Below the pieces are notes generated by a model that saw only the letters and a program-made list of their open reading frames with translations, was not told the DNA's origin and ran no database searches. DNA of 64,000 nt, from positions 1 through 64,000 of the forward strand of contig JALQPE010000356.1 of the NCBI GenBank assembly GCA_030407315.1, written 5' to 3'. Below, in pieces: positions 22,848-54,912 of this stretch. A program made the translations under genes and the position numbers. This stretch comes from Asparagopsis taxiformis. Lineage: Eukaryota; Rhodophyta; Florideophyceae; Bonnemaisoniales; Bonnemaisoniaceae. The first letter of the stretch is position 1; each line of letters opens with the position of its first letter.

Positions 22848-22863
22848 GCTGAGTAACAGCAGT

Positions 22864-23314: not shown

Positions 23315-23326
23315 AGGAGGGGGCGA
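23315..23326 (+). promoter_or_regulatory. Polypurine tract of C
   Basis: AGGAGGGGGCGA directly abuts the 3' LTR. It is identical to the tract of B and one base different from that of A. Confidence 0.85.
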
Positions 23327-33189: not shown

Positions 33190-33875
33190 TGTAGCAGGTA
33201 GAAAATCCGCTAGAGCGGCAAACTACCCGACAGGTGTCCCGAGCCTCGGTAGAGGAAGTGGTAGAGCAGATGAACCTTATAGGTACCCAGCGGGTAGTCT
33301 CGTAAGAGAGAAGGTGTCGTTACCCGGAGGGGGTTGTGCAACGAAGGGGTGCTCACGCGAGAGGCGTATGGATAGAGCGAGTGACGTAATCCGTCGAGCT
33401 GTTGGCTAACCCTAAGGTTTTCCCGGAGAGGGGTTGAACAATAGGTATGCGAACACTGTTCCAATGGGTCGTAATTCCACTTGAGTTTACGTTACTCTAG
33501 AAACCGTGCCTACTGGCTATTCCAGTGGCGTATTTATACTAAGTCTACTGTAAGCTAGGGTTAGTGGTTAGGAATAAATATCCAGTTATTGACCAACCAG
33601 AGCCCAGTTAACGGCACTCGCCTACCCGCGAGGTTATTGCCAGTTAGGCTTACATTGTAATGTACAGCTGGTTTGCTTAAGTTAGAAATTTGCCCCTTGT
33701 GGGGTCTTGGCCGGGGCCGATGGGCCCGGATAGGGTTATTTGTCAGCCTTAGCTTGTCCCAAGTATAGGAAACACGCCAGTTGGCTGGTGCCTTGTGATT
33801 GGCACATCCCTTAAGTGGGTACCCAATAGGGAAGCGACACGCCTCGATCGGCGAGGACCGCCAGGCGGTACGACA
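33190..33875 (-). repeat. 3' LTR of chromovirus A (686 bp)
   Basis: Sense start TGTCGTACCG, sense end CTGCTACA. Paired with 57094-57779. Confidence 0.95.
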
Positions 33876-33887: not shown

Positions 33888-34367
33888 GAGAGATTTGTCG
33901 TCCCGACAAAATTTGATCAAATAAAAATTACAATTTTTGGCTGTGGCCGTTGCATTGTGCAATTCAAAATTTCCCGCGCGCGGCGCGTGTTCGATAAATT
34001 CGTTTAGTCCATCCGACTCTTCCGGCGGTCCACCGACCGTTTCCCATTGGAATCAACACCTGTTGCAGGTTTCTTATCGATCCCACGCGAAAGAGCGTAC
34101 TCACCCCTTCGGTGTCCACAGTGTACGAGAGTTCGTGTCCCTTCCGTCATCCCTCAAAGGGTTTTGCATCCATCTGCAAGATAGTTTACCGCGCGATCGC
34201 GTGAGCGGTGCCAACTCGAGGCTTTGAATTCATCTCCCGGCCAATCGCCTTGCGAATCCCATTCAGTGTTGCGTACCGCGGCTCCCTCTTGGAGATTTAA
34301 GCCAATAGGCCATTTTGTCTATCCCGCTTCAGGGTTTTTAGCAACGTCCTTCCTCGCCTCTACTGGC
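33888..34367. other. Spacer between A's polypurine tract and antisense gene
   Basis: About 480 bp with no coding sequence of its own, equivalent to 44157-44607 in B and 22873-23314 in C. It would be the upstream region of the antisense gene. Confidence 0.6.
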
Positions 34368-34375
34368 TTTTTAAG
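34368..34375 (+). promoter_or_regulatory. TATA-like box of A's antisense gene
   Basis: tttttaag lies at the same place, relative to the conserved Met at 34430, as tatataag in B and tatttaag in C (51-55 bp upstream). Confidence 0.45.
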
Positions 34376-37300
34376 ATGCCCCCTCGCGCTGCGATTCAAT
34401 TCGAATCCTCCGAAGAGGAAGGGGACAATATGGGTTCACCCAACCGTCCAACCACGCGTTCAAGCGTTCGCCGCCCAACCACTCGCCACCAGGCGTCCTC
34501 TTCCCGCACCGGGGCCACGCCAACGCCGGCCAAGTCCTCTTCGCCTCCCGCGACAAGCGCGCCGATCGCCTCCGCGGCTTCATCGCAAACGCGAACTCGT
34601 TCGACTGCCGCCAAGGCTTCGGCTGAGACAGCCTCGCCTTCCGGCAAAGTCGTCGGGACTCCTACGCGCTCCGAGAAGTCGGTTCCTCCCGCTAGGGCAA
34701 GTGCACAAGGTGGCAACGTCGGTCCAACCGAATCCCCTGCTTCCCCGAAGCCGTCCACACCCGTGGCCACTGCCAAGCCGTTATCGGCCAATCCGCCATC
34801 GCGTGAAGGCGAACCCGTTAAGGCCACCGGGCCGTCTCCAAAAGGAGCTATGTCGGCTGCTGCCGAAGAGGTCGTTGAAGTTATTGCCGAGGGGGGCGCT
34901 ACGCCCAAGCCATTGAGGCAGTCGAATGTTAGGCCTTCGCCAAGCTCCCGGCCGTCGTTGGCTCGTCCCTCCGCTCCTGCGGTTCGTACCTCTTCTGGTC
35001 GTGACGCTTCTGCGAATCCTTACGAGGACTATGGTCGCCGCAATCAGCAGATTTTGGCGGACGCTCGTAAGCGTAGGGAAGAAGAGTTGCGTCGCGAAGC
35101 CGCTCGTGCGGAAGCCGAAAAGGCAGAAGCCGAAAGGGCAGAGGCCGAAAGAGCTAATGCTCAGCTTGTCGAGTCGGCTGTAGACCCGTACGCCTCTTCT
35201 GGCAAAGTTACCCGGAGTGGGGCTGGTCCTGTTCCCGTTAATGCATCAGCAGGCGTGAGGCCGTCGGGCACCGCCCTAGTTGATCCTTACGCTGTTGCGT
35301 CCGCGCCAGCGCCGGCGGTTCCATCGCATGATACCCCTCCTCGGGCGCCTAAGCCAACTGCCAATTGGCGTTCCTCGGGGGAATTTTATCCAGCTAATGC
35401 TGACGAGCTCATGGTGTTTGATTCACAAGCATTGCCGTTTAGGCGTGAGCTGGCTGCTCCCTGGGAACACTACCCATTCGCGCGACTCCCTCGTAGGGAT
35501 TTTACCGACCGCCCGCGAAGCGAATTACGTCGCGATATGCTCTTGATGAGTTCCCTCCGGGGTCAAAGCCACCAGGTGCAAAATGAATGTTGGTCGGCGT
35601 ATGCCCGTCTCCCTTCGAGTCGCCCGATGCGTCACTTCCGTGTTCCTCATACGCTTTGTAGCGACAGGACTTTTCTCCTTCATCCCGGGGATGCTCTTTA
35701 CGTCGAACGTATGAACCGCCGCTTGTTCCAAGAGGAATCGTACCAAGGTACCGTAGAGGACATGCCGATGATTCGGTCCCGCTGGTTTGCGTATCCCCCT
35801 CGTCCCGATACGGGTAACTATGAGCATCATATGCGACTTCACGCTAGGGTGACTTCCCGAATGATGGGGCGTCAAGTGACAGCGAATGACTATCGCGTAT
35901 TCGCGCACCGTAATGGTAGCTCTGTTGAGCCGGTCACTAGACCCATGAGGGTATCGAGGGAAGCGTTAGACCCGTTATGGGATGATCCCATTTGGGAAGG
36001 GCAGTTGGCTCCGCCGATGTGCTTGCCTATCGCCGACCCTCCGTCGTTGGTGTATTTCCACCATTCCGCTCTTCGCGAAGCGCCCGGATGGCGGTTGAAT
36101 AGACTCCGGTCGTACCTCGAGTTGGAGAGGGATATCCTAATAGGAATCGAGTTGGCTCGTATCATCGAAACGCGGGGCTTCGTGCCGGTGATGGCTGAGG
36201 AACTCGTCAACAGAGTAAGTCGTACCTGGTACGGTCTCGCGGAGGTGCCGCTGTCGGACGTGGTTCCCCATAGCAGGAAGTTACCTGGCACAGTAGTGCG
36301 TCGCCTGTTGAAGGTAGCCCTTGGGGGTGATGATTATCCTCAAGAGATGGTCAGTACCAACATCACAGGAGTGGCACCGGAGAAGGTGGTTGTCTATACG
36401 ACGGTGGACCTGCCGATAAGGGCGTTACGTATCAACGTTTTAAACCACCGAGAAGGTTCGACCGTAGAGCTGCCTCCCTATCGTAGGGATGGTGAATTCA
36501 CCGAAGACGGTTATTACGGCTTGGAGCCTGGCCATTATTCTGACGGTGATCCTGAGTCGTACAAGTATCAGCCTATTGGCGAAGCGTTTGTGCCGCGTCC
36601 GTGGTGGAATTCCGAGATGGGAGGCCCGAGCGGTCGCTCTCCTTATGCAGGACGGAGCTTTGCTCCTGTTGCTCCCTTACCACCCAGTGGTTCTGATGAC
36701 TTGTATGAAGGTTCGATCCCCATGGATACCACGCCTACCGCGTCAGCCCCTCAGCCTGTGGCTACTCCGTCATCCCAGATGGGTCCTGCCATGGAGGCGT
36801 TTCTAACGTCCGACAAAGGCTCTGAGCCATCCGTAACCGGTGATGACGGTACTCCGCGTCAGCCTTCCGCTGTGAACATCCTACGTGGGGAATTATCCGG
36901 TCGGGAGTTGATGTCGCTCCCAGAGGTGCGGCGGTTGGCCAATGAGATCGGGGATGGTACGGTCGCTTCCGTTTTCGTCTCGGCCAATGGGCGTTTCCTC
37001 GTGGATTCTGCGTTGGACACGCTTGCGCTTACGTGTGTCACGTTGGCTAATCGCTACAAGCACGGACGCGAGCAGCGTAATGTCGCCCGGGAGCGCCTTC
37101 GCGAAGAGCGAGAACGACGCCGCGTGGCAGATAAGGAGATAGAGGCTGCACGCCTTGAAGCCGCAGAATTGCGTACCCGGATTGGGGAACTGGAGGGCGA
37201 GTTAGGTGACGCCAGGCGTTTGCTGGAGCAAGCGGCTTCAGCCTCGCGCGTTATTCCCGGGGAGGGTGAAGAAGAGGCGGCTCAGCCTGGTTACTCACGT

Positions 37301-37690
37301 CGTCGTGCCAGGTCTCCCGATGAGGGTCTTCCCGATCGCAATGTGCGCACTCGTCTTCATTCCCCTGAGGGTGCCGCTGTTGCTCGTAATCCTTTGCTTG
37401 CGCAATTGGATGCCCGTCTAGGGTCGCCTGAGTCGCCAAATGTTTCTCCGCGTTCCGCGTCCGTCCCTGGAGTTGGGTTACCCGCACCTGCGGTCGCGCC
37501 TTCACATGGCCCTGTGCCTGCCCGTCGTCGGGGTAGCGGTGCTATTCCGCAGCGCGGCTTGCGTCGCAATCCCACCTTCGCTAGGGTTCCACCCCGTCAT
37601 CCTCGTCCATCGACGAACGTGCGTGCATTTGCCCCTACGGCACCCTCCGCATCCCAGCGGCCTCGGCCTTCGAGCCATTATCGTCGCTAG
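34376..37690 (+). CDS. Antisense gene of chromovirus A (unknown protein, about 1,100 aa)
   Basis: A single open frame on the strand opposite gag and pol: 1,104 codons from ATG 34376, or 1,086 from the Met at 34430 that aligns with B and C and is spaced correctly from the TATA-like box. The N-terminal 320 residues are A/S/T/P/R-rich and disordered (RRPTTRHQAS shared in all copies). Residues about 335-720 form a conserved globular core shared with B (ELMVFDS, PWEHYPFARLP, RPMRHFRVPHTL, LHPGDALYVERM, SRWFAYPPRPDTG). Residues about 890-960 form a charged coiled coil, and the tail is basic and Pro-rich, ending RPRPSSHYRR. I recognise no enzyme motif or known family. It converges on pol with a 277-bp gap. 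Its coding state is intact although pol has a stop. Confidence 0.85.
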   Translation: MPPRAAIQFESSEEEGDNMGSPNRPTTRSSVRRPTTRHQASSSRTGATPTPAKSSSPPATSAPIASAASSQTRTRSTAAKASAETASPSGKVVGTPTRSEKSVPPARASAQGGNVGPTESPASPKPSTPVATAKPLSANPPSREGEPVKATGPSPKGAMSAAAEEVVEVIAEGGATPKPLRQSNVRPSPSSRPSLARPSAPAVRTSSGRDASANPYEDYGRRNQQILADARKRREEELRREAARAEAEKAEAERAEAERANAQLVESAVDPYASSGKVTRSGAGPVPVNASAGVRPSGTALVDPYAVASAPAPAVPSHDTPPRAPKPTANWRSSGEFYPANADELMVFDSQALPFRRELAAPWEHYPFARLPRRDFTDRPRSELRRDMLLMSSLRGQSHQVQNECWSAYARLPSSRPMRHFRVPHTLCSDRTFLLHPGDALYVERMNRRLFQEESYQGTVEDMPMIRSRWFAYPPRPDTGNYEHHMRLHARVTSRMMGRQVTANDYRVFAHRNGSSVEPVTRPMRVSREALDPLWDDPIWEGQLAPPMCLPIADPPSLVYFHHSALREAPGWRLNRLRSYLELERDILIGIELARIIETRGFVPVMAEELVNRVSRTWYGLAEVPLSDVVPHSRKLPGTVVRRLLKVALGGDDYPQEMVSTNITGVAPEKVVVYTTVDLPIRALRINVLNHREGSTVELPPYRRDGEFTEDGYYGLEPGHYSDGDPESYKYQPIGEAFVPRPWWNSEMGGPSGRSPYAGRSFAPVAPLPPSGSDDLYEGSIPMDTTPTASAPQPVATPSSQMGPAMEAFLTSDKGSEPSVTGDDGTPRQPSAVNILRGELSGRELMSLPEVRRLANEIGDGTVASVFVSANGRFLVDSALDTLALTCVTLANRYKHGREQRNVARERLREERERRRVADKEIEAARLEAAELRTRIGELEGELGDARRLLEQAASASRVIPGEGEEEAAQPGYSRRRARSPDEGLPDRNVRTRLHSPEGAAVARNPLLAQLDARLGSPESPNVSPRSASVPGVGLPAPAVAPSHGPVPARRRGSGAIPQRGLRRNPTFARVPPRHPRPSTNVRAFAPTAPSASQRPRPSSHYRR

Positions 37691-37967
37691 GGACAGGCAA
37701 TTGCCTCCGCACAAACCTCGAAGGGTAGTTTGAACACGCTTTTGCGTTGCGCCTTTGTTCATCAGGTAGTCCTGAGGCACCTTTGAGGTACATTAAAGAT
37801 ACATCATCACGATGACGTGTGAACTTGTTTGTTGAACCCCTATTGGCCAAATTTCATTTCCGAAAAAAAATCTTAATTTCCACACTGGCTCCGGTTGGCG
37901 GTGATAAAGTGCGCCCTTTCTGGGTTGACCTTCCGAGGCTCGGTAGCTCCACCCGGTGGATGCCTTG
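37691..37967. other. Gap between convergent antisense gene and pol of A
   Basis: 277 bp without a gene; shared 3' flank where the two transcripts of A would meet. Confidence 0.6.
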
Positions 37968-40900
37968 TTAGGTTCTCGTCCCTGAGGGGTTATGCAACTT
38001 CTTCCCACTTCTGGGTGTGCGCGTGCGTGTTCGGCGCGGTGGCCTGTCACCCTTACGGTGTTGCGTACGACGGAAGTACCGTGATGCCCATTCGGGGGGA
38101 ACATTCGCTCGTTGCGTCCATGTTGGTTTGCGGTAGCCATACCACTTCACAAGGAACCATTGTTCCCCATCGTCGTCAGTGACGTAGTCGATGAGGTCAT
38201 CGATAGGATACTCCTCATCCGAGGTTGCGCGTTCGGCGTTGCCACTTCCCTCTGGGGTTTCCTTCGTCCCTTCAGGGAGTGATGCTTGTTCCGAGTTCGG
38301 TCGGGTGCCCGGTGGCGCTTTTTCTTCTTCTCCATTGGGAGTGGTTTCCCATGACCCTATGGGGTTCGCCGTCGCCTTTGAGCGAGTGTTTCGACCCTGT
38401 TTGGGGTTTGCCATCCGGGTGGGTGCTTGTCTTGTTAGGTTCGCGGTGCGCGGTTTCGTTCCCGCTAAAGGGGTTGCCTCTCGTTGAGGAGGGGTCGGCG
38501 TCTGTGGACGTGCATCGCTTAAGCGTCGCTTGTTCGCGTTTCCGCGAGTTGGATGCCTTTGGGCTGAGTCTGTGGCGTCAGTGCGTGCCCCACTCTTGCG
38601 AGTTGTTCGCTTGTGCGATGGGTGAGCCCTATCAGGGTTGCGACTTTGGTCCGCATCTGCCTGGGCAGCGCGTGCTTCTCTACTTCGTAGATTTCTTCGC
38701 AATTGTGTGCGGTCGCGGTCGGTTGGCACCTGGTGCATGGGTGAACGACTTGGGTCGTGTGCGTCGCTCCCAATTGTGGTTGAGTTACCGAAAGGGGTAC
38801 GGCTACTAGGTTCATCCCTAGAGGGAGTTGCAAAATTTTAGCTTACGCGCATAGCGTCTGGGGCCCCCTCCTGAAGGGTGGTTTGTCCCAAACCACTATC
38901 TTCTTCGTTTGTCCTAATTGTAGGTTGCTGCGAAAGCGGTGGATGACCCGTGGTGGGAAGTTCCTGAGTAGGAGTTGGCGGAAGTGACTCGCTTTGTGCG
39001 TGTTGTTGGCCGTTGCCCTGTGGTTGTTGTGTTTGCGTACTCGGCGCGAGGGCGTCTGCACCTGATGGTGATGCTTGTGCGTTGGCGGAATGTGGCCTCG
39101 GTGGCAAGGTGGGTTCCCCGGTTTGACGCGGGGCGAGCGCGACTCTATCGAGACTAACCTTTTCGGTGATACCATCGCGGTCGATGTAAACCGTTCGCCG
39201 TCCTGCACGGATAACCCTGTAGGGACCTTGAGCTACTGGCGTTAGCTTGTTCCGTTCACGGACTTCTGGGTTATCCAGGTAGACATAATCATCAGTCGTG
39301 ATGAGTCGTTTAGACTTCCGGATCGACCGGTCGAAGTTACGCTTGTAGCGTGCTTGCGCGCTGTGAAGGCGTTTACCTGCCATATCAATGGTATCCGTAA
39401 TACGGCGTAGGAAGTCTTGCTTCGTGAACGCGTCTGGCGTTGCCCTCCTTTTCACCGAATGGTGTGTCGCATATGGCGGTGGAGGTCGGCTTAGTATGAG
39501 GTCGAAGGGTGTAGTTCCCGTTGTGCGATGCACGTGCGTGTTGTACGCATAGGTTAACGCTGATGCGTAGACATCCCAGTCGTCCTGGTTATCATTGACG
39601 TAATTACGTAGCATGCTCAATAGAGTACGGTTATACCGTTCGACTTGCCCATTTGTCTGGGGATGGTAAGCCGTCGTGAAGACGTTCTTCGTTCCTAACT
39701 GGAGGCAGACAGCCTGGAAGAACTTCGACGCAAATTGCGGACCGTTATCGGATAGTAATGTCCGTGGAGGACCATACTTAAACACCCAATGTGTACAAAA
39801 GGCTACTGCCACATGGTAAGCCGTAATGCTTCGCAGCGGAACCACCTGGGTTAGCTTGGTAAAGCGACACGAAATCACCAGTAGGTGCACGTTACCTTTC
39901 TTGGTACGAGGTAGAGGACCGAGGAGGTCAATTGCAACGTCATCCAATGGTGTGGTAGCTGGGAACAACTGGAGGGTACTCGCATGTTTGCGCAACCGTA
40001 ATCGGTTTCTCGCACACGCTGAACAGCGTTCAACCGTTCCGGTTACATCCGCAGCCATTGCAGGCCAATAGTACGATAGGCGCATCATGTCGTACATGCG
40101 GTTCTGACCAGGATGTCCTGCCAATATGCCGTGGTGGCACATCGTCAATAGACGTTGCCGTAAGGCTTTAGGTACTACGATTTGGGATGACCCATCCAGT
40201 CTGGACATCCTACAAAGGACACCGTCTTCATCTTCGAAGAAGAGCGAGTCAGACTTCTGAGAGGCTAGAGCCTGTTGACAGAAGTCGTCTGTTCGTTGCT
40301 CTTCGAGCCACTCCTTGCGAGTTATCGGGCTGTAGTTTTCCGTTCGCGGATGAGTTGTTAAGACGGGGGTACCGTTGAGATTGGGCGCCTCCATGGCGTG
40401 GTCTCTTGCTAGAGAAAGGTCGTAGAACCAAACATCAGTGTCATCATCCAAGGATGTTTCACCTTGCGGTGCGTGCGTGGCCAACAGAGTTGGTATTTCA
40501 TCGTCAATAGTGACGGGCGTCTCGCCGTTAGTTTCAACACGCGAAAGGGCGTCTGGCAGTTGGTGAACCCGGCCGGGTCGGTAGACTATTTGATAGTCAA
40601 ATTCCGCAAGTCGGAGGCGCCAGCGGCATAGTCTCCCTGAAGGGTCATTGATATTCATAAGCCAACGCAGTGCGTTATGGTCCGTCCGGACTACAAACTT
40701 TGTTTGCTCCAAGTATGGACGTAGCATAGTGACAGCCCATACGACGGCTAGACATTCACGCTCCGTAGGGGAGTAACCTCTTTCAGGTTTAGTCAAGGTC
40801 CGCGACCAATAGCCAATTGGCTTGAGATCGTTCTCTTCCCCTTGCTGCTGAAGCAGAGCGCATCCTATTTGGTATGCGGAAGCGTCCGTGTCTACGGTGT

Positions 40901-42998
40901 AGGGTTGACCCAACTTGGGTAGAGCCAGTATCGGCGGCTTGGTCATGACCTCTTTGAGAGCGTTGAACGCGCGGCGTTGGTCCTCGGTAGGAGGTTCTTT
41001 CCCGAATTTAGGGAGGCTGTCTTTGGTCAGCATTTCGTTCAAGGGGTGCGCAATTGCGGCATACCCTTTGATGAATCGTCGAAAGACGCCACAGCTTCCG
41101 AGGAAGGATCGCATTTGCGTAGGCGTTTGCGGAAAGATCGCGTCAGCGATAGCCGAAGTGGCGTTCTGTGCAACAGCTAGCTTTCCTGGCATCACGACAT
41201 GTCCCAGGTAATCAACCTTCTTTTCGAAGAAATGACACTTTGTCAACTTCAGGGTGACACCTGCTTCCCGTAGGAGGGAGAGTACTTGGTCCACATGGTG
41301 GAGATGTTCGGCCTCGCCCCGAGAGAATACGATCACATCGTCTAAGTAAATCAGACAGGTCTGCCAGCGAACGCTGCTAAGAATAATGTCGATGGCACGC
41401 TGAAACGTTGCCGGAGCATTCTTTAAGCCAAAAGGCAAAAGCTTGAAGCGATATGTCCCCAAATGGGAGGTGAATGCCGTTTTGTCACGGTCGTCCTGTG
41501 CAACAGGGATCTGCCAATAGCCAGAATTACAATCCAATGTGGTGAATACTTGAGCATCTCCGAGGGAGTCAATACAATCATCCATTCGTGGAAGGGGGTA
41601 CACATCATTGACAGTGATGTCGTTAAGACCCCTATAGTCGACGCAAAAGCGTAATTTACCATCCTTCTTCGGGACAAGAACCACTGGGCTAGCCCATTCG
41701 GAGGTCGACGGTTCGATCACTCCTTTTTCCAGCATGCTGGTTATTTCCTTACGGGCAATCTCTCGACGAGCGGGTCCCATCCGGTAGGGTTGTTGCCGTC
41801 TAGGCTTGCTCCCTTCGACTATGCCGATTCGGTGTTCCGTAGCGCGGATGTCCCCTAGGGATCCATCCCACATAGACTCGTGTCGAGATAGCATGCTAAG
41901 GATGCGTTCCCTCAACGGGATTTGACCAAGGTGGTCCAGAGAGACTTCTTGCTTCCAGCTTGATGGTTGGGTGGCCTCGGCCTCTTGCTCCTGATGGAGA
42001 GTAGTCACCATAGTGGAGGCCTCTTGGGAGGAAGGGGTAGAACGGCTGAGAGCCATGGGGCGCATTGGCTGTTCGGGTGCCCGGAGGGCATAGCCTATAA
42101 TGGTCCCTTTAGGGAGGTACTTGTCGGATGTACCGAAGTTAGTTAATATAGTCAGGAATTCCTGTCGCGGGATGACTTCCGCAACCCCATTCGGGATAGA
42201 GACACGATGTCGTTGAAGGATCCGATCTCTCGGTGTGAGTATATTCAAGCCGCCACCGGCGCATACAACAGCAGTTGTTACTTGACTCCGCGGAGGAACA
42301 TTCACACTTTGTGACAATCGAATGCCATGAGGTTGGCGGTCTAAGTTAATCCCATTAGAGGGTCGCGAGGCATCCACGTAGCATGAAAGGGTGGGGGATG
42401 TTTTACGCGTAGGCGACATCACTAGGATAGCTATCGACCCGCCGTCGTGAATATCAATCCGTTGGGCCCGGCACCTAATTGCGTCTACGTGGGTATTCAT
42501 TGCCCCAGTTCCCAAGATGAGGGGTACGGCCAACTTAGGCGCGACGAAGAATTCTTCCTCAAAGGACTTGTGGCCTAACTGTAAGGACAGTATTATCTTG
42601 CCTTTTATCTGAAGAGGATTGCCGTTAGCATCGGCCAGTTGCGGAACTTTCCCCGTAGGGACTTGGAATTGTTCCCAATTGTGGGGTAAGCTCCTTTCAT
42701 GGATGACCGATGGTCCGGACCCGGTGTCCATCACCATACGCATGGGCGTGAGAATTGACGGATCGAGTCCGATGGAACCCATTACTACGTAATGGGCGGC
42801 CTTAAGCAGGCATGAGGCTTTCGGCCTTGAGGTTCGAGTCCCTGTGGGGGAACCCGAAGGGGTTGGTGTCTGGGAAAGACTTTGGTCCCTAGAGGGAGTT
42901 GCAGCCTTTTCCTGCGGAGGTGGTTGTGGTGAGATGTCCACCGAGTAGCGTAATCGCTCCACCTCCTGACGGGAGTGCGACACCTCACTCCCCGTCAT
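37968..42998 (-). pseudogene. Chromovirus A Pol polyprotein, one in-frame TAA before the chromodomain
   Basis: ATG at 42998 overlaps the gag stop (TAATG). Domains: protease (RMVMDTGSG, Asp at residue 91); RT (FCVDYRGLND, LPFGLKNAPATFQ, active site IYLDD near residue 550); RNase H (DTDASAYQIG, RTDHNALRWL); integrase with HHCC finger (HPGQNRMY, CSACARN), DDE core (DLLGPLP, SDNGPQF, NGQVERYNR) and GPY motif (AQGPYRVI). TAA stands at 38838-38840, after 1,386 codons. The same frame then runs open for a further 290 codons, with a chromodomain at about 38225-38095 (DLIDYVTDDDGEQWFLVKWYGYRKPTW), ending at 37968. B has no stop there, so this is either a single nonsense change or a readthrough site. 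The chromodomain would guide integration to chromatin marks. Confidence 0.9.
38862..38872 (-). promoter_or_regulatory. Internal copy of the polypurine tract in A pol
   Basis: AGGAGGGGGCC, the first 11 bases of the terminal tract, lies at the codons for QEGAP just before the TAA. B has the same at 48736-48746. Confidence 0.45.
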
Positions 42999-43484
42999 TA
43001 GTTTTCCGACGACGTGTCGGAGTCGTCGGAGGTTTCCAAGGCGTCGGCAACGTCTTGAGCCATTACGGAAGATCCGTTACGTTCTAAAACGTCTCGCCTC
43101 AGAGGACCCAATTTGGGAGGATTTTCGTCATCGGCGAACGCAACCATGCGTGTTGGAGGGTTTGACCGTTGGAGCACGGCTTTAGGGTAATCCCTTTTTC
43201 GGTTGAACCGATTGGACTGGCGCTGTTGGCGGCGCATAACCTGCTCCGGTTCTTGCTGGTAAGCGTAGTTCGCAAAGGCGAAGTAAGTTCCCACTGAGGG
43301 TGGTAGGTAAGGACAAGTGTATAACACGTGCCCCGGTTGGCGACAGCCAGAGCATCTCCAAGTAACAGCCCCTTCGGGGATCATACTCTCAGCGAGTTTA
43401 AGATGTTCCCCCGTTAGGGTAGGGGCCTGCATTGGCGCGCCCATTGGGTTCCCGGTAGGGGAAGGTAATGTCGGCGGCGGGGTC
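42998..43484 (-). CDS. Chromovirus A Gag, C-terminal part
   Basis: Continues Gag from 55573 once B is removed (join at gggtc, reading IPRT-PPPTLPSP). It contains the zinc knuckle CSGCRQPGHVLYTC (CX2CX4HX4C, about 43357-43316) that binds element RNA, then a basic segment and an acidic Ser/Glu end, TSSEN. The stop TAA (42998-43000) overlaps the pol ATG in the pentamer TAATG, suggesting stop-restart translation of Pol. Confidence 0.9.
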
Positions 43485-44144
43485 TGTAGTAGGTAGAAAA
43501 TCCGCAAAGCGGCAAAACCACCCTACAGGTGTCCCGAGCCTCGGTAGTGTGGTAGAGCAAGCGAATCTTGCGTCAACCGCCAATAACGAGTATACCCCGA
43601 AAGGTCTGCCGGTAATACCGGGTGAAGGTTGGCGGGGTGCTCACGCACGAAGTGCGTATTGATGGAGCGAAAGACGTAACCCGTCGAGCTGTATAGCTAA
43701 AGCTAATTCATCCTAGAAGGATAGAAAAGAGCGATGCAAACACTGTTCAGTGGAGTCGTAAATTCCACGTGAGTTTACGTTACCTCTAAAGGTTAAGCAC
43801 TCTGGCTAATCCAGAGGCATTTTATACTAAACTAAGTTACTGTAAACAGTTAGGGTAGGTAGACAGTTAGGAATAAATATCCTTATGTGCACCAATCAGA
43901 TCCCTGATTATGGCGACTGCGGGAGCCCGCGAGATCACCGACTGTTAGTGTTACAGTGTAAAGTTAGCTGAGTCAGCTTAGTTAAAATTTGCCCCTTGTG
44001 GGTTTTTTAGTTGTCCCAATGGGTCCCTCTCCCTCACTGGTCTGAGGTACAGCGAGGCTGTTTCCATTGGTTATTCCCGAACCGGGTTCGTCCAATAGGA
44101 TGTCGACACGACCCCACCAGGGCAGACCACTCCGTGGTATGACA
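43485..44144 (-). repeat. 3' LTR of chromovirus B (660 bp)
   Basis: Sense start TGTCATACCA, sense end CTACTACA; near identical to 54913-55572 and similar to the C LTR at 23327-23985. Confidence 0.95.
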
Positions 44145-44156
44145 TCGCCCCCTCCT
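44145..44156 (-). promoter_or_regulatory. Polypurine tract of B
   Basis: Sense AGGAGGGGGCGA abutting the 3' LTR. Confidence 0.85.
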
Positions 44157-44607
44157 AAGCCAATTGTCGTCCCGACAATTAAAATTCCAAAAATCCGTTG
44201 ATTTTAAATTCCCAAATAATTTCCACCGCCGTGGCCGGCCAGCCGGGTAAAAATTTTGCGCGCCAAAAATTGGCTGTTATATTTACCCGTGCACACGGTT
44301 CCACCCCGAGCCTCGCTCATCCATCTGACTCACGACCCTTCGGGTTTTTTCATCCTCTTCACCGGCACTGCCGTGTTTTCCAGCCCGCCGTTCCGGATTG
44401 CGAAGCGATCGCCTGCCTGGCGATTTGAATTCCGTACCTTTCGGTAGCTTGCTTGCGTGATACGCGACCTTTCTTGCGTTAAGGGTAACACCCGCTTTGC
44501 GTATTTTAGGTGTCCCTTCGGGTTTCAAGAAAAAGGCTCACGCCTGCTGCGACCGTACGGCTTGTCCGTTGATTTCTTCTTTGGCGATCACGAACTCCAG
44601 TGGAGTG
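44157..44607. other. Spacer between B's polypurine tract and antisense gene
   Basis: No gene. It aligns with the spacers of A and C and ends in ctccagtggagt and the TATA box. Confidence 0.6.
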
Positions 44608-44615
44608 TATATAAG
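44608..44615 (+). promoter_or_regulatory. TATA box of B's antisense gene
   Basis: tatataag, 51 bp before the conserved Met codon at 44666. Initiation about 30 bp downstream would skip the ATG at 44633 and leave a leader of about 25 nt before 44666. Confidence 0.6.
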
Positions 44616-44632
44616 TGCGGAAGATCATCAGC

Positions 44633-47600
44633 ATGGCTGCACACGGTAACAGCCCACAAGGCAACATGCCTCCTCGTTCAACCCGGGCGTCTTCTCGCCG
44701 ACCAACAACACGCCACCAGGCGTCGCGCGCGAATGCGACTCCGGCTACGCCGTCAACAAACCCTTCGGCATCTGCCGCTGCAGCCCCTGCTTCTTCTGCG
44801 CAGCCGCCGGCTACCGGTTCTCAAGTCCCGCCCTCTTCAGGGAATGTTCAAGCACAGGCTCCGTCGCCGTCATCCACTCGCCGTTCCACGGAACCCTCGC
44901 CGAAGGGGACGCCTCTCAAGGCCAAGTCAAATCATCCGGCTGCGCCGTCGAAGGCAATTGCTTCTGCCAGTGACCCTCGCCCGGAGGTAGAAGAAGTGGA
45001 AGTCCAACGGAACACTCCGCGTTCGCCGCCAATCGACAAGCAGGGTTCTCCCCGTTCGCCTCGCCAGACGCCGGAACCGGAAGAGATTGTTGTTGATGCC
45101 CCTGCTGCTTCGCAGCCTGTTCCGACCCCCGCGACTGCCGTCGCTCCTGCCACCACAGGTCGTACCATCGTTCCCCGACCCTCGGAGTATCCGGATCCAT
45201 ATGCGCGGAAGCCCGCTACGGCTGAGCCGGTCGCGTCCAGGAATCCTTACGAAGACTTGTACAGCCGTAATCGGCAATTTGTTCTTGATGCTCGTAATCG
45301 CCAAGCGACCGAAGAAGTTAACCGCGGGGCTGTGGCCAGCAACTCAACGCTAGCGGCGTATGCTTATGGTGGAAGCGGGACGGCACAGCCGCAAGATACA
45401 AGCTTGGGTAGAGGTCCTCTTGTGGATCCATATCAATCTTCCGTTCCCGTGGGGAGTTCGGCGGCACCGACTTACTCTTCCCCAAAAAGGGTACCGGCTC
45501 CTTCCGCCGACTGGCGTCGCGAGGGCGAATTTTATCCTTCGAATGCTTCGGAACTCATGGTCTTTGACTCACACGAGTTGCCTTTTGCAAGGTATTTGCG
45601 AGCTCCTTGGGAGTATTATCCCTTCGCCCGTCTACCCCTCCGGGAGTTCGTGAACGAGAACCACACCGACTTGCGTCGAGATCTTCGTCTGATGGTAGGC
45701 GTCAAACGCCGTAATCCCCATGCGCTGCCAAACAGCTGGTCAGCTTACGCTCAACTTCCTTCTTGTCGGCCGATGCGGCATTTTCGTGTTCCTCACACTT
45801 TGCAGTGTGACCGCACTTTTCTTCTTCACCCAGGCGATGCCTTGTATGTTGAGCGGATGACCCGTCGGCTGTTCGAGCCTCATTCGAACCAGGGAAGTAT
45901 TCCGGATTTACCTATCACTAGGTCAAGGTGGTTTGCGTATCCACCCCGCCCGGATACCGGTATGTTGGAATGTTATATGCGTGTACACGCTCGATACCTG
46001 ACTCGGTCCACAAGCTTGCAAGTGTCGTCACTTGACTACCGAGTGTTCGGTTATCGCGCGAACCGCAACATCAATAACCGGACGGCGAACTTGGCTGTGC
46101 CGACAGCGGAGTTGAACGCGACACTTGAAGATTCCCGCTGGGAAGGCGAGAACTCGCCGCCCTTATGCTTGCCTATTGGGGATACACCAGCGATGCTGTA
46201 CTTCCACAGTGTGGTCGAAGCCGATCCCCGTCCTTGGGTGAAGTCTCGGTTCCTGGACTACGTCCTTCTGGAGCGTGAACTCCTTATTGGGTTGGAGATG
46301 GCGCGTCTCGTGGAGACGAGGGGATTCATTCCGGTATTAACCAAGCACTTGGCTGCGTCGGCCGCCACTACCTGGAAGGCTTTCCATGAGGTACCGTTAT
46401 CACCGGTTGTACCGAAGACGCGTAGCGTGGATGCGAAGGTCATTGTCGACCTCCTCGAGGCTTCCTACAAGACCACCGAAGGTATCGAGGAGATTTCTTG
46501 TGCGATTGAAGGCGTGTCGCCGGAGAAGATCATTCCGTACTCGCATCCGAGTCTCCCGTTCAAGCCGGCTAAGCTGACAGCGTATTCTACCCGAGACGGG
46601 GTGGTGGTGGAGACGCCTCCCTTCCGTCGCGATGGCGAGTTCGCCGATGACGGTTATTACGCGGAAGAGCCTGCAAGTTACTCCGACGGAGATTTGGAGG
46701 ATTACTTATACAAGCCCGAACGGGAGATGCATGTACCACGCCCTGGGCGTTCTACTCCGGCTGGATATCGACACGCTGATCCCGGCTTCTCGCCTCACCC
46801 GACGGTGCCAGTCGCGCCCGCTCCTTACGAACCTGGGGTTCCACAATCAAGTGTTCATCCGCCAGTCCCGCGGGGCTTGGCACACCCTACCCGTCAGGGC
46901 TCTTCGTCTCCTTCGGAAGCTCCGTTTCTGTCGCCCGATCGTCGATCGGGTCAGTCCGTGGATCGTGACGGCCAGGCCGGTCGTTCTACCGCTCCTGCGG
47001 ATGTACTTGGGTCCCTTTTAACTTCAGCGGAGCTGTTCTCGGTTACGAAGGTGCGTGAATTGGCGGAGACTCTTGGTGATGGCCAACTTTCGTCGGTATT
47101 TCCTCCGCGGGTTAGCGGTTACCCCGTTCGTGGAGCGTTGAATACCTTGGCAATGACGTGTATCACGTTGGGTACCCGGTACAAGGCTAGTCGCGAGCGA
47201 CGAGATGCTGCCGAAACGCGCTATCGTGCAGAACGTGCGGGTCGCCGCTTAGCGGAAGAGAAGAACTCTCGATGGGAGCAAGATGCAGCTGCGAGGCAGA
47301 AGGTGTTTGACGAACTGCAGACACGAGTCCAGGAATTGGAAGAGGAGTTGCGCTTGGCGCGGCGTCGTATACCGCATGAGCGAGGAAGGGATACACCTAG
47401 CGCCCTGGGAACCCCAGCCAGTCTTCAACCTCAAGGAGGGACTTCCGGACGTCGCCGGGATAGGTCACCCTCTGGTCGAGATGATGGTCGAAATGTTCGC
47501 GCTAGGCGCTCCATGCCAGTTGATGTTGATACGCCGCTGCTACAGCTTGTTGATACGCCTGACCCGCCCAGGGCGGATTCACCTTCGGTGTCCGACGATG

Positions 47601-47821
47601 TGGATATTCCATCTCCGATGGCACCGGTTCCCTCAGCTCCAGCTGCGTCTCGACATCGCCCTCCGGCTCGGTTGCCTACTTCCCATAGGGATTCTGGCCG
47701 TGTGCGTCCTCGTGACACTCGCCGGTCCACGGCTCAGCATCCGACCAACCGGTCCTTGAGGCCATCCCCATCCTATCCTTCGCATCAGCGTCCTCGTCCT
47801 TCCGACAACTTCCGTCGTTAA
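44633..47821 (+). CDS. Antisense gene of chromovirus B (unknown protein, about 1,050 aa)
   Basis: Open for 1,062 codons from ATG 44633 (1,051 from the conserved Met at 44666). It is homologous along its length to the antisense protein of A: the disordered N-terminus with RRPTTRHQAS; the core with SELMVFDSHELPFARYL, PWEYYPFARLPLREF, RPMRHFRVPHTL, LHPGDALYVERM and SRWFAYPPRPDTG; ALNTLAMTCITLGTRYK before a charged coiled coil (about residues 850-905); and the basic tail RPRPSDNFRR. The two proteins have diverged widely at the residue level with both frames kept, while pol of B carries two lesions. No known domain is recognised. Possible roles, all inferred, include a structural or envelope-like particle protein, a nuclear import factor or a silencing suppressor. 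Confidence 0.85.
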   Translation: MAAHGNSPQGNMPPRSTRASSRRPTTRHQASRANATPATPSTNPSASAAAAPASSAQPPATGSQVPPSSGNVQAQAPSPSSTRRSTEPSPKGTPLKAKSNHPAAPSKAIASASDPRPEVEEVEVQRNTPRSPPIDKQGSPRSPRQTPEPEEIVVDAPAASQPVPTPATAVAPATTGRTIVPRPSEYPDPYARKPATAEPVASRNPYEDLYSRNRQFVLDARNRQATEEVNRGAVASNSTLAAYAYGGSGTAQPQDTSLGRGPLVDPYQSSVPVGSSAAPTYSSPKRVPAPSADWRREGEFYPSNASELMVFDSHELPFARYLRAPWEYYPFARLPLREFVNENHTDLRRDLRLMVGVKRRNPHALPNSWSAYAQLPSCRPMRHFRVPHTLQCDRTFLLHPGDALYVERMTRRLFEPHSNQGSIPDLPITRSRWFAYPPRPDTGMLECYMRVHARYLTRSTSLQVSSLDYRVFGYRANRNINNRTANLAVPTAELNATLEDSRWEGENSPPLCLPIGDTPAMLYFHSVVEADPRPWVKSRFLDYVLLERELLIGLEMARLVETRGFIPVLTKHLAASAATTWKAFHEVPLSPVVPKTRSVDAKVIVDLLEASYKTTEGIEEISCAIEGVSPEKIIPYSHPSLPFKPAKLTAYSTRDGVVVETPPFRRDGEFADDGYYAEEPASYSDGDLEDYLYKPEREMHVPRPGRSTPAGYRHADPGFSPHPTVPVAPAPYEPGVPQSSVHPPVPRGLAHPTRQGSSSPSEAPFLSPDRRSGQSVDRDGQAGRSTAPADVLGSLLTSAELFSVTKVRELAETLGDGQLSSVFPPRVSGYPVRGALNTLAMTCITLGTRYKASRERRDAAETRYRAERAGRRLAEEKNSRWEQDAAARQKVFDELQTRVQELEEELRLARRRIPHERGRDTPSALGTPASLQPQGGTSGRRRDRSPSGRDDGRNVRARRSMPVDVDTPLLQLVDTPDPPRADSPSVSDDVDIPSPMAPVPSAPAASRHRPPARLPTSHRDSGRVRPRDTRRSTAQHPTNRSLRPSPSYPSHQRPRPSDNFRR

Positions 47822-48153: not shown

Positions 48154-51100
48154 TTATCGGCGCTTCTTAGCCGTTCGTCTTTTAGACGTTTTCTTAGCCG
48201 CTTGGCGGTTCCGCTTACGGAAGTATCGGGAGATTTGTTCGTCAGGCACGTTGTGCCGTTGCGTCCACGTGGGGTCACGGTACCCGTACCACCTTACGAG
48301 GAACCACTCCTCATTATCGTCGTCGACGACATGGTCGATCAAGTCGTCTATGGCGAATTCCTGTTCTTCAGGTGGTTCCAGGTTCTGGGAGATAGCTCCC
48401 TGTTCGGTTGGAACATCTTGACTCGACGAGCGTCGTCTTCTTCCGGTGTTAGCCGTGTCACCCGTAGGGTTAAGCGGCTCAGCCGAAGTGGCTTCTTGGG
48501 ATATTTCCATGCCGTGTGGTCGGCTTCTTCTTGTTTGTCGTCGAGAGCGACTATTCTTCTTCGGGCTTGTTCCGGTTGGTTCCTTCTGGGTTGATCGGCG
48601 CAGCCGGGAGAACGTCTTGTTGGCGTCTTGGGAAGCAGGTTCCTGCATTGTGTCAAGAGTTTCATCCTCGGGGAGGTCAAGTTGAGTGGACATCGGCTGT
48701 GAAGCAGCATTATCCTGACGATGAATATCGGCCTGGGCCCCCTCCTTAAAGACGGTTCGTCTCGGACCGATACTCGGTATGTCGGTTAAAGGTTCACCCT
48801 CAACCGCGGAGCGGGATGACAAAGGCTTGGTTACAGGGTGACCTGGGGGTTGCTCGGTTGGAAGAGGTACGCGCTGCGGGCTTGATGCATCACGATGTAG
48901 GCACTCTTCCGCCATACTCGGCACCGTGTTGGCGGTTTGGTCGTCGGTTCCCACCGCAGGTGCGGATGCTCCGTTAGAAGTTAACCGTGAGTGTGGTGTT
49001 TCCTGTTCAGGTTGTGGCGCATACGTCACGCGGTCGTGGCTAACTTGTTCGACAAGTCCATCCCGTTCTATGTGAACGGTTCGCCTACCGGCTTTCACGA
49101 CCTTGAAAGGTCCTTGCGCTAGTGGCGTTAACTTGTTTCGTTCCCGTACCTCGGGGTTGTCAAGGTAGACGTAGTCGCCCTCCTGGAGGAGTCGTTTGGT
49201 CTTCCGGACTCCCCGGTCAAAGTCTCGCTTATAACGCGCTTGCGTGGCGTGTAGCCTTTGACCGGCCTTCTCAATTGCTTGAGCAATCCGTTGCAGGAAG
49301 TCCTGTTTCAAGAAAGCGTCCGGTTTTTGCCGTGTTCTTGTCGAGTGATGAAGGGAATAAGGGGGTGGTGGTCTACTTAGGATAAGGTCAAAGGGTGTCG
49401 TCCCTGTCGTGCGATGCACGTGCGTATTGTACGCGTACGTCAACGCTGGTGCGTACACGTCCCAGTCATTCTGGTTTTCGTTTACGTAGTTGCGTAACAT
49501 GTTCAACAACGTACGGTTATACCGTTCCACCTGACCGTTGGTCTGTGGGTGGTAGGTCGTTGTGAACAAGTTCTTTGTTCCAAGTTGCAGGCAAACAGCC
49601 TGAAAAAGTTTGGAAGCAAACTGAGGTCCGTTATCGGAGAGCAACGTCCTAGGGGGACCGTACTTGAAAATCCAGTGGGTGCAGAAGGCGACAGCCACAT
49701 GGTAAGCAGTGATACTGCGTAATGGTACAACCTGTGTAAGCTTCGTGAAGCGACAGGTAATTACTAAAGGTGAAGGTTACCCTTCTTTGTTTTAGGCAGA
49801 GGGCCTAGTAAGTCTATAGAGACTTCTTCCAGCGGTGCTGAAGCTGGGAACAGTTTCAAGGTATTAGCTTGCCTACGCAACTTGAGTCGGTTCCTGGCGC
49901 AAGCCTGACAACGTTCAACCGTAGCGGTGATATCCGCGGCCATGGCCGGCCAGTAGTACGAGAGACGCATGGTCTCATACATACGGTTTTGTCCGGGGTG
50001 ACCCGCGAGTACATCGTGATGACACATCTTCAACAGGCGGGGCCTGAGTGTTCTTGGTACAACCACTTGGTGGGAATTGTCAAGGGTGGATTTACGTCGC
50101 AAGACACCTTTGTCATCTTCGAAGAAGACAGTGTCAGACTTCTGACTTGTCAACACTTGTTGACAAAAGTCATCAGAGCGTTGCTCCTCGATCCACTCGT
50201 TGAGTGTGATTGGTTCGGAACCTTCTGTCTGAGGATGTGTCGTCATGACAGCTTGGTTTTCCTCCATCAGGGGGGTGTCAGCGGAAGTTCGCGCGATGAG
50301 TACATCAAAGAACCACGGGTTCATCTCTTCGGTAACAGGTATTTCCTGGTGAAGGTCATACGCGAAGAGCGTGGGTATTTCGTCATCCACTGGATGGGGG
50401 TCTGCCCCTTCCGTTTCGACACGCGATAACGCGTCTGGTACCTGATGAACCCTGCCAGGACGATAGACTATGGTGTAGTCAAACTCCGACAGACGGAGTC
50501 GCCAACGACACAGGCGCCCTGACGGGTCTGTGATATTCATCAACCAACGCAACGCGTTATGATCGGACCTCACCACGAACTTCGTTTGTTCAAGGTACGG
50601 CCTAAGGGTAGTGACTGCCCATACTACGGCGAGACACTCGCGCTCCGTCGGAGAATATCCCCGTTCTGGTTTGGTCAAGGTCCGCGACCAATATCCTACA
50701 GGACGATAGTCGTCGTCATCCTGCTGTTGCAACAGCGCACACCCTATCTGATACGCAGAGGCGTCTGTATCTACGATGTAGGGTTTACCCACCCTGGGCA
50801 AAGCCAGTATCGGTGGTTGCACCAGAGATTCTTTAAGTTTATCGAACGCGTGGCGTTGTTCCGCCGTTGGAGGACTTGAACCGAAGCTCGGTAGTTTGTC
50901 TTTGGTCAACATCGCGTTGAGGGGGTGGGAGATATCCGCATACCCTTTGACGAAACGGCGGAAGACACCGCAGCTCCCCAGGAAGGAACGCATTTGCGTG
51001 GGGGTGGTTGGAAAAGTTGCTTTCGCGATAGCATCCGTCGCAGTTTGGGCGACCGCCAGCTTACCTGGCATAACAACATGTCCGAGTTAGTCTACCTTTG

Positions 51101-52859
51101 CTTCGAAGAAGTGGCACTTGGCCAGCTTGAGGGTTACCCCTGCCGTCCTCAACAGTGTGAGTACCTGGTCCACTTGGTGGAGGTGGTCTTCCTCACTACG
51201 TGAGAAGACGATGACGTCGTCGAGATAGATAAGACATGTTTGCCAGCGTACGCTGCTTAGGATAATGTCAATCGCTCGTTGGAACGTGGCTGGTGCATTC
51301 TTCAGCCCGAAGGGCAGTCGTTTAAACCGATACGTTCCAAGATGCGACGTGAAAGCCGTCTTATCCCGATCCTCGGAGGCAACGGGTATTTGCCAATAGC
51401 CTGAGTTGCAATCAAGCGTGGTGAACACGCGTGCATCTCCTAAGGAGTCTATGCAATCGTCCATACGGGGTAACGGATAAGCATCCGAGATGGTGATGTC
51501 GTTGAGACGTCGGTAGTCAACGCAGAAGCGTAATTTACCATCCTTCTTGGGTACCAAGACCACGGGGCTAGCCCATTCGGAGTTCGAGGGTTCGATGACT
51601 CCTTTCTCTAGCATGGAGATGATCTCCTTACTTGCTAGCTCCCTTCTCAAGGGTCCCATTCGGTATGGTTGTTGTCGACGTGGTCGACTTCCTTCGATTA
51701 TATCAATCCGATGCTCGGTTGCTTTAATGTCTCCAAGAGACCCGTCCCACATGGACTCATGTTGCGATAGCATCGCTATAATTTTCTCCTTCAACTGTGG
51801 TTGTTGAAGGTGCTCCAAGGATACATCCTCCCGCCATTGCGGATTCTCTTTCTCCTTGGTTCCCGTCATCGGGTTGGTTAGACTGATGATACGGTTTGAG
51901 CCGGAAGAGGATAACTCACTAGGGAGCTTTTGATCGGCTGGGCCGGGTGCTCGACGGGCAATACCGACAACCGTCCCCTTCGGGAGGTATCTTTCGGTCG
52001 AACCAAAATTGGTGAGAATGACAGTGAAGACTGTACGAGGAATGATTTCAGCAATGCCGTTCGGCATTGAGATCCGCTGTCGGTGGAATAGTTTTTCCTT
52101 GGCCTCAAGGAGGCTTAGTCCGCCCCCAGCACAGACAACCGATGCGGTTAATTGACTCATGGGGGGAATTGTGATTTCTCTTGCTAGCCGGATCCGGTTT
52201 GACTGGTGGTCCAGATCAGTACCCTGCGAAGGGTTTGGTTCATGTACATAGCAAGAAGAAGAGTTGTTCAATTTACTCACGTTTTGCATCAGCAGGATGG
52301 CGATCGATCCACCATCGTGTACATCAATGCGCTGAGCGCGGCATCGAATTGCATCTACATGTGAGTTCATGATACTTGTTCCCAGGATAACTGGTACTGC
52401 CAGCTTAGGTGCTACAAAGAATTCTGCGTCCAGAACCTTACGTCCTAGCGGTATTAGCAGCTTGATTCTTCCTGTTATCCTGAGAGGATTACCATTGGCG
52501 TCTGCCAGTTGAGGGATGTTCCCGGTTTGCGCGGCATAGGTCTTCCATCCTTTGGGTAAGGTTGATTCTTGGACGACAGAAGGGCCTGAACCTGTGTCCA
52601 TAACCATACGCATAGGCGTTAGAAGTGTCTCGGATATTCCGATGGAACCTAAAACCACGTAGTGGGCTGCCTTCAAAAGACATGCAGCCTTTGGCTGAGA
52701 GGGGAGGGGATAAGGGATATCCCCGGTTGGTGTCTGGGTAGGACGGTTCAACCGCGTTGGTATCTCCGTTCCACCCTGTGGAGGTGTGGATGGTGAGATG
52801 TCCACCTTACAGCTAAGCTGTTCCACCTCCTGGCGGGAGCGCGACACCTCACTCCCCCC
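48154..52859 (-). pseudogene. Chromovirus B Pol polyprotein with one nonsense and one frameshift
   Basis: Same domain order as A: protease (RMVMDTGSG), RT (FCVDYRRLND, IYLDD), RNase H (DTDASAYQIG, RSDHNALRWL), integrase (HHCC, D-D-E with SDNGPQF and NGQVERYN), GPY (AQGPFKVV) and a C-terminal chromodomain (DLIDHVVDDDNEEWFLVRWYGYRDPTW, about 48350-48270), ending in TAA. TAA at 51087-51089 replaces the Tyr codon of KVDYLGHVV in RT. One base is lost near 49767 after GNLHL. The pol start also lacks the ATG seen in A: the sequence after the gag stop is TAACC instead of TAATG. B is therefore probably not autonomous, although its LTRs are nearly identical. Confidence 0.9.
48736..48746 (-). promoter_or_regulatory. 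Internal copy of the polypurine tract in B pol
   Basis: AGGAGGGGGCC at the codons for KEGAQ, matching the copy in A. Confidence 0.45.
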
Positions 52860-52861
52860 GG

Positions 52862-54796: not shown

Positions 54797-54895
54797 CACT
54801 TCTACTCTTGTTCAATGAGCTCACGTCTAACGACGAGTTTACTCTTCTTGAGTGGTTTCGGTGTGTCGCCGGTCGGCTAGGATGTCGGTAAGATT

Positions 54896-54911: not shown

Positions 54912-54912
54912 A

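Follow-up and report, generated by a model that had tools for sequence, protein, structure and literature searches.

Is a long open reading frame (ORF) lying opposite gag and pol of a retrotransposon a gene, and if it is, what might its product do? The question is raised by 64,000 nucleotides of an Asparagopsis taxiformis assembly (GCA_030407315.1, contig JALQPE010000356.1, positions 1 to 64,000; hereafter the window). The window holds two related Ty3/Gypsy chromoviruses, A and B, on its minus strand, B nested in the gag of A, and a smaller fragment, C. An earlier note on this DNA had reported a long frame antisense to gag and pol in A and B, between pol and the polypurine tract (PPT), together with a third piece in C. 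We are close to certain that the frame is a real gene under selection. The same elements have a further property that is more surprising than the gene: they are tiled from end to end with very small perfect hairpins.

Evidence for a protein-coding gene

The antisense ORFs (aORFs) of A and B lie between the end of pol with its chromodomain and the PPT, on the strand opposite gag-pol (Table 1). They are separated from pol by about 280 bp and 330 bp, and overlap neither gag nor pol. Their products are homologous (39% identity over 1,123 columns) and are the most diverged part compared between the two elements: identity is 58% for gag, 67% for protease-reverse transcriptase (PR-RT), 73% for RNase H-integrase (RH-INT) and 64% for the integrase end. 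Coordinates, orientation and identity thus confirm the pair described in the earlier note. The third piece also exists, but C is inverted and truncated and holds only about the first 65 codons.

Copies were sought in the whole genome (141.5 Mb, 3,156 contigs), whose element content, together with a Plavaka transposase, hints at a basidiomycete. A core motif of 11 residues, back-translated and allowed up to 3 mismatches, has 349 genomic matches compared with 0 for the reversed pattern. Among the A-type loci fetched, a long terminal repeat (LTR) lies 5' of the gene in 30 of 30 and a chromodomain 3' of it in 29 of 30, so the antisense gene belongs to its element and is bound to it. Copies were scored for the best candidates alone, a set biased towards intact ones: 37 of 42 A-type matches and 35 of 46 B-type match rows have no in-frame stop, frameshifts being uncounted. 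The same short insert (reading PIRKGICTPDML) occurs in the pol chromodomain linker of one copy, L003 (L numbers denote loci of the genome), and at the end of the antisense gene of an ENA protein, P0007; it is perhaps a small mobile element.

The ratio of nonsynonymous to synonymous substitution rates (dN/dS) is low between intact subfamilies, ranging from 0.16 to 0.27 at synonymous divergences (dS) of 0.17–0.87. Relative to A it is 0.17 for L012 (dS 0.20), 0.19 for L013 (dS 0.19), 0.18 for L014 (dS 0.35) and 0.18 for L020 (dS 0.58). L012 and L020 give 0.17 (dS 0.62), B and L031 give 0.21 (dS 0.72), and L014 and L020 give the top value of 0.27 (dS 0.17). L033 gives 0.16 against A, 0.16 against L012 and 0.22 against L020 (dS 0.72–0.87). 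The lowest 100-codon window has dN/dS 0.02 (A versus L020, codons 301–400). Close pairs are noisy (A/L003 0.51 at dS 0.016; L020/L027 0.05 at dS 0.009), and the A/B value of 0.30 comes with a saturated dS of 2.0. Two broken copies were also compared. L011, which has three stops, gives 0.31 against A, and L032 gives 0.63 against B; it has three 1-nt indels, and its third codon positions show no excess of changes (p 0.095).

Substitutions at first, second and third codon positions number 142/78/355 between A and L020 and 174/126/407 between B and L031, a third-position excess with p = 2e-48 and 2e-42, respectively. All indels in the gene between intact subfamilies are multiples of 3 (3, 15, 21 and 15 nt; 6, 18, 3, 9 and 3 nt), and those in the upstream 500 bp are mostly 1–2 nt. 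The third-position excess and the exclusive multiple-of-3 indels exclude a chance ORF. The antisense gene is protein-coding, older than single copies and under purifying selection. The earlier note had held that the frames are kept open although the proteins have diverged, and had looked to dN/dS near 1 and loss of the frame in most relatives as signs to the contrary; the opposite of both was found, for the frame among the best-scoring copies.

Translation start and promoter

The earlier note placed TATA-like boxes ahead of the same Met codon in A, B and C and took them for the gene's own promoter. The three 8-mers are present (C carries tatttaag), and their ends lie 55 nt (A), 51 nt (B) and about 51 nt (C) before the second in-frame Met. 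The first in-frame ATG is nearer, however, following the box immediately in A and 18 nt past its end in B. TWTWTAAG is found in 12 of the 29 A-type loci where the start could be located (of 30 fetched); in the remaining 17 it is truncated or altered. By group, the box is shortened in A93, changed in A83 and absent in L033. B, L032, C and L031 retain a TATA-like box ending 17–18 nt ahead of the first ATG.

Codons 1–18 would be 5' untranslated region if the TATA box were used, yet they evolve as coding sequence, to judge from a few sites: synonymous/nonsynonymous changes are 8/3 for L033/L012, 7/6 for L033/A, 5/4 for A/L012 and 3/2 for A/L020. Met1 of the A-group gene is therefore likely used, and the TATA box is not supported as the promoter of A. 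The best-kept block near the gene is instead the CCAAT-bearing TTAAGCCAATA, invariant in all four A-group subfamilies aligned. Since the box is unconserved, codons 1–18 look coding and this block is kept, the gene probably has a promoter of its own, other than the TATA box in A. Upstream conservation in general was rejected as promoter evidence. Between subfamilies, the genes have diverged further than the LTR and the DNA upstream; such a pattern resembles exchange and is therefore no argument for constraint.

Protein and possible function

The protein of A begins with a Pro/Ser/Ala-rich part (about residues 1–300), followed by a conserved core (about 330–740) and a second conserved stretch (about 850–900). 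In windows of 50 residues, A and B are most alike at 401–450 (80% identity); identity is 12–38% in the N-terminal 300 residues, 24–30% at 751–850 and 26–38% in full windows beyond 950. A coiled coil is predicted at about 905–955 by a simple heptad score devised for this analysis, which exceeds that of shuffled sequences (0 of 2,000 for A, P 0.0035 for B). Both proteins have a basic motif, RRRxRSPx(5-12)RNVRxR, and a basic tail. The core, coiled coil and basic tail named in the earlier note are thus all recognisable in the sequence.

That the protein matches no known family also held up in the databases searched. Pfam gave 0 families at E up to 1 for both proteins, Transposase_28 (PF04195) and bZIP included. 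PHROG and NCBIfam gave no family match, the only similarities being weak coiled-coil matches in one profile search (best E 0.023). Nothing significant was found among PDB sequences, and no viral contig matched. A bZIP transcription factor was considered and rejected, as Pfam has no bZIP match and the best PDB match, of the coiled coil to C/EBP-beta, has E 0.16. A gag-derived protein was likewise rejected (hhalign probability 0.2 against the element's own gag, with shallow profiles).

We think it reasonably probable that A and B have a third gene, antisense to gag and pol and with transcription of its own, whose product is an accessory factor acting in trans. Transcription would start from a promoter within the 500 bp separating PPT and ATG, giving an mRNA that is the complement of the genomic RNA in its 3' part. 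The protein would dimerise through its coiled coil, and its basic region might serve nuclear entry or nucleic acid binding; for a nucleic-acid-associated role of this kind, judged from sequence features, we see the chances as evenly balanced. Its target would be element RNA or DNA, where it could influence expression, counter silencing or take part in particle steps, which would place it with the accessory factors of the brtn/gene23 type (see below).

Three results weigh against this reading. The TATA-like box is missing from most A-type loci, as described above. The C/EBP match of the coiled coil is at chance level. Finally, protein searches returned short ENA entries alone, close to the genome's own copies: P0003 (99% to B), P0006 (96% to L020) and P0007 (97% to L031). 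Conservation of the gene is therefore seen in this or a very near genome alone.

The alternative that survives best, though we consider it unlikely, is that the product is an anti-silencing protein of the VANC type that coevolves with the element, its gene passing from one backbone to another as a cassette. The gene has diverged more than its surroundings in two comparisons: B/L031 (aORF dS 0.72, pol tail dS 0.26, Jukes-Cantor distance (JC) in the LTR part 0.09) and A/L020 (aORF dS 0.58, LTR JC 0.05; pol-tail dS for A/L027 is 0.37). Moreover, L014 is a mosaic. From about 34.35 to 36.46 kb it is A83-like (0.000–0.020 per 300-nt window, compared with 0.117–0.257 to A), and A98-like sequence lies upstream of the gene, in its 3' third and at the integrase end; the first LTR window and pol linker of L014 match neither. 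The greater divergence of the gene and the L014 mosaic indicate that different gene versions are exchanged among element backbones. A and L012 show no contrast, however (aORF dS 0.20, pol-tail dS 0.23), mosaics also arise through ordinary recombination, and the likeness to VANC is one of analogy only.

A structural or particle protein, that is, a capsid-like or envelope-like extra component, seems improbable. The family is long and abundant and has a conserved core, and env-like genes are described at the same position (PMC7264820). The gene is antisense, though, rather than sense, and no membrane-spanning stretch was found (maximum 19-residue Kyte-Doolittle mean 1.3 for A and 1.05 for B), so neither sense orientation nor a membrane segment marks it as env-like. 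The absence of any Pfam match and of similarity to the element's own gag, noted above, also speaks against it.

We give even less weight to the view that the antisense RNA is what counts, the frame being a by-product of a transcript that would control copy number by RNA interference once paired with the genomic RNA. Position and orientation do make the aORF mRNA complementary to genomic RNA, and RNA roles of this kind have been considered for the antisense aORFs of plants (PMC7264820). However, purifying selection at the codon level, multiple-of-3 indels and frames open across subfamilies show that what is retained is the protein, and protein and RNA roles could coexist. Recent capture of a host gene by transduction, an event known in LTR elements (PMC7264820), can be set aside as very improbable, since A and B share the gene with proteins only 39% identical, an LTR lies beside it in every A-type locus fetched, and protein searches, in a library seemingly poor in fungi, gave no homologue beyond the three ENA entries.

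An accessory factor acting in trans thus stays the preferred account. The high copy number (349 motif matches), intact copies, several subfamilies and measurable selection make domain mapping and functional tests direct.

Mini-hairpin tiling

The tiling emerged during an inverted-repeat test of the leader and fills A, B and C throughout. We counted perfect 4-bp stems with loops of 3–5 nt and took the expectation from a second-order Markov model. A and B together contain 1,037 such mini-hairpins versus 307 expected (3.4-fold), and the rest of the window contains 433 versus 464 expected. Hairpins cover about 40% of A and B compared with 9–12% in shuffles. Non-overlapping units number 308 in the left part of A, 72 in its right part and 378 in B, or one per 31–33 nt.

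The unit is sharply defined. The excess is 3.80 for loops of 3 nt, 3.65 for 4 nt and 3.11 for 5 nt, and nothing comparable is seen for inverted repeats with loops of at least 8 nt (0.81–1.17-fold), direct repeats (0.86–1.81) or mirror repeats (0.88–1.35). A fifth pair forms at chance frequency (0.270 vs 0.258), stems with one mismatch are 1.12–1.19-fold, and G.U pairs are not preferred. Two or three G-C pairs occur in 835 of the 1,037 stems (69% expected). Among stems of at least 4 bp, the commonest loop is 4 nt in A, L012, L020 and L033 and 3 nt in B, L031 and C. Among stems of at least 5 bp, loop 3 leads in A as well (57 vs 37), so that the lineage difference in loop size is confined to the lower threshold and is no part of the reading proposed below.

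Within genes, shuffling synonymous codons erases the excess: all eight A/B coding segments stand at 2.4–3.4 times the shuffled mean and above all 60 shuffles. Control genes give 0.55 (pol of D, a Gypsy element), 1.08 (copia pol) and 0.89 (Plavaka) relative to codon shuffles. These controls are three unrelated elements of the window, and other elements of the genome could still be tiled.

The tiling is also kept as the sequences diverge. With substitutions placed at random in matched fashion, hairpins would fall from 110 to 61 between A and L020 (real 127), from 110 to 55 between A and L033 (real 92) and from 117 to 52 between B and L031 (real 137); those in RH-INT between A and B would fall from 70 to 18 (real 65). 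Subfamily-branch substitutions in the gene made 33 and 17 gains (expected 13.4 and 11.6) and 19 and 14 losses (expected 48.4 and 35.3). Overall, hairpins on these branches were destroyed at 0.4 and created at 2 times chance. Loops of 8–10 nt were near expectation, as were loops of 12–14 nt save in one case (losses 17 vs 10.2). Over whole loci, fixed differences between A83 and three outgroups give 38 gains versus 15.5 and 21 losses versus 56.4. Variants of the gene confined to a single copy come close to chance, with 6 and 2 gains (6.4 and 2.0 expected) and 22 and 6 losses (22.1 and 8.9 expected). Singletons polarised by majority alone give gains of 45 versus 32.7 and losses of 85 versus 106. 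Because fixed losses are scarce and polymorphic losses random, losses are suppressed between amplified lineages and not among polymorphisms. Both selection for many weak sites and a copying process that restores hairpins are compatible with this turnover.

Two simpler explanations were tried and rejected. Genome-scale ordered RNA structure, found in some RNA viruses, is a structure signal across a whole coding genome. In A and B, by contrast, stems are strictly Watson-Crick, and folding energy in the aORF shows little or no excess over codon shuffles (0.7–2.2%, compared with 5.5–14.7% in four gag/pol segments and 0.6–6.9% in the three controls), which rules against plain RNA structure. Simple fold-back template switching is disfavoured because the arms stop at 4–5 bp and clusters of changes within a single arm show no excess (104 of 1,334, versus 99 of 854 for control repeats); the arms in a yeast template-switching study are at least 7 bp (PMC8604942).

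We therefore advance only tentatively, at a little under an even chance, the reading that this lineage has a hairpin-tiled genome. It would carry about one mini-hairpin per 32 nt in LTR, leader, gag, pol and antisense gene, kept and renewed along amplifying lineages. The hairpins could serve an element protein, either Gag or the antisense protein with its coiled coil and basic region, as scattered sites for docking or packaging. Alternatively, they could be a trace of fold-back behaviour in the element's reverse transcriptase. Several results count against it. In the A98 group, over whole loci, losses are random both for one-copy variants (42 vs 39.0; gains 21 vs 12.8) and for variants in at least 2 copies (18 vs 18.6; gains 11 vs 5.8). 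Compensatory retention is barely above its control (60/1,334 vs 24/854). The broken copy L011 also retains more hairpins than under random placement (106; mean 94.5, maximum 105), and L032 (118; mean 107, maximum 121) and L003 (112; mean 106.2, maximum 113) do not. Host-side flanks of ten loci are 1.46-fold enriched (58 vs 39.6), some of them holding other copies.

In a limited literature search, the closest parallel found was the perfect inverted repeats described in protein genes of Nematomorpha mitochondria (PMC6649704). Like the hairpins of A and B, they are gained and lost and come with no excess of imperfect repeats, an absence on which the authors of that study remark, proposing conversion. 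The Nematomorpha coding palindromes reach 284 bp, whereas those of A and B are a uniform 4-bp stem with a 3–5 nt loop in all parts of the element. If the tiling holds elsewhere, a second layer of information would lie over every retrotransposon gene, with consequences for the recognition, packaging, copying or hiding of element RNA or cDNA. Sequence data of any LTR element suffice for a check.

Comparison with known systems

According to a review, antisense accessory genes of LTR retrotransposons occur in several plant families of elements and in Boty; they have no established function, and none of their proteins is known to resemble another protein clearly (PMC7264820). The earlier note had linked antisense ORFs to plant Tat/Retand elements. 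They are indeed known there, but also elsewhere, including brtn, the antisense gene of the chromodomain-bearing Boty elements of Botrytis cinerea (PMC7264820, PMC8365987, PMC4227169). Boty resembles A and B in having gag, PR, RT, integrase, a chromodomain and, after pol and ahead of the 3' LTR, an antisense gene (PMC7264820); its host is an ascomycete, and the likeness to BRTN is by description, not by sequence. Maize Grande with gene23, together with RIRE2, Wallabi and Gran3, has the antisense gene in the same place as A and B, in what are, unlike A and B, plant elements; gene23 is described as having its own promoter and a nuclear product (PMC7264820). ORF4/TRP28 of Retand belongs to a non-chromovirus lineage (PMC11963269), and the A/B protein has no Transposase_28 match. 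The arrangement in A and B is of a known kind (Boty brtn, Grande gene23, Retand), and the protein itself has no match in the families searched. VANDAL elements are DNA transposons, another kind of element than A and B. Their VANC protein is an accessory protein encoded by the element and diverging together with it (PMC5735166); the A/B protein can be likened to it by analogy only. We recognised no basidiomycete antisense accessory gene in the literature search, in which most titles stayed unopened and subscription journals fell outside.

Structure of the elements and the window

Both elements have LTRs, a target-site duplication (TSD) and a PPT. The 5' LTR is followed by a sequence resembling a primer-binding site (TTGG...), to which no tRNA was matched. 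The Pfam order in the pol of A is RVP (below cutoff), RVT_1, RT_RNaseH, Integrase_H2C2 and rve, and B has the same order spread over three ORFs, with RVP and rve below cutoff. The chromodomain of B is also below the Pfam cutoff (Chromo, E 0.0016), and the tail of A matches it at 71% in an alignment of 51 residues. Positions 43203–43437 of A match the gag region of B at 71%. The pol ORF of A is open for 1,386 codons and then has one stop ahead of the chromodomain. The earlier note's remark that pol has stops is correct for this stop in A and for the stop and change of frame in B, but the stop in A is missing from all five relatives read (L003, L012, L014, L020 and L027).

Table 1. Features of elements A, B and C in the window.
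Feature	Coordinates	Strand	Remarks
Antisense gene of A	34376..37690	+	1,104 aa, ATG start; dN/dS 0.16–0.19 vs L012, L013, L014, L020, L033
Antisense gene of B	44633..47821	+	1,062 aa from first ATG, open frame from 44615; dN/dS 0.21 vs L031
TATA-like box of A	34368..34375	+	tttttaag; abuts first ATG; not conserved
TATA-like box of B	44608..44615	+	tatataag; similar box in L032, L031, C
Upstream block, putative promoter element	34291..34307	+	around TTAAGCCAATA at 34297 (-79), CCAAT-bearing
Tiled stretches	33190-43479, 43485-55572, 55578-57779, 22664-23985		all genes and LTRs
3' LTR of A	33190..33875	-	99.0% match, 689 nt, 33187-33875 vs 57091-57779
5' LTR of A	57094..57779	-	LTR self-match, termini
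TSD of A	33185-33189 and 57780-57784		CACAG
pol (PR-RT-RH-INT), chromodomain tail and 3' part of gag of A	37968..43484	-	Pfam, ORF list, tail reading
5' part of gag of A	55499..57016	-	cut off from remainder by B insertion; Retrotrans_gag E 6.7e-07
3' LTR of B	43485..44144	-	99.85% to 54913-55572
5' LTR of B	54913..55572	-	LTR self-match
TSD of B	43480-43484 and 55573-55577		GGGTC
pol of B with chromodomain	48154..52847	-	1 in-frame stop, 1 change of frame
gag of B	52862..54799	-	Retrotrans_gag E 5e-06
Fragment C, inverted and truncated B relative	22659..23985	-	LTR 23327-23985 (read 23985->23327) and B-like antisense gene start (about first 65 codons, 22856->22659); 84.7% to B, 1,360 columns

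A small stem-loop with a GTCG/CGAC core lies just inside the PPT in A, B and C (33890–33915 in A, 44155–44180 in B). Its outer pairs differ between A and B, and its folding z-scores are weak (0.17 for A, -1.88 for B and -1.40 for C). A is itself nested in a copia element, recognised by 120-nt matches at 30725–30844 and 60419–60538 that are 100% identical, so that copia encloses A and A encloses B. A separate Gypsy element on the minus strand (25903–30695) has a chromodomain, an Integrase_p58_C match and an RT region 23% identical to that of A, and no antisense ORF of at least 150 aa lies beside its chromodomain. Elsewhere, a unit of about 126 bp is repeated in six tandem copies (16407–17168), and a Plavaka transposase remnant lies on the minus strand at 4109–5539 (E 4.5e-15).

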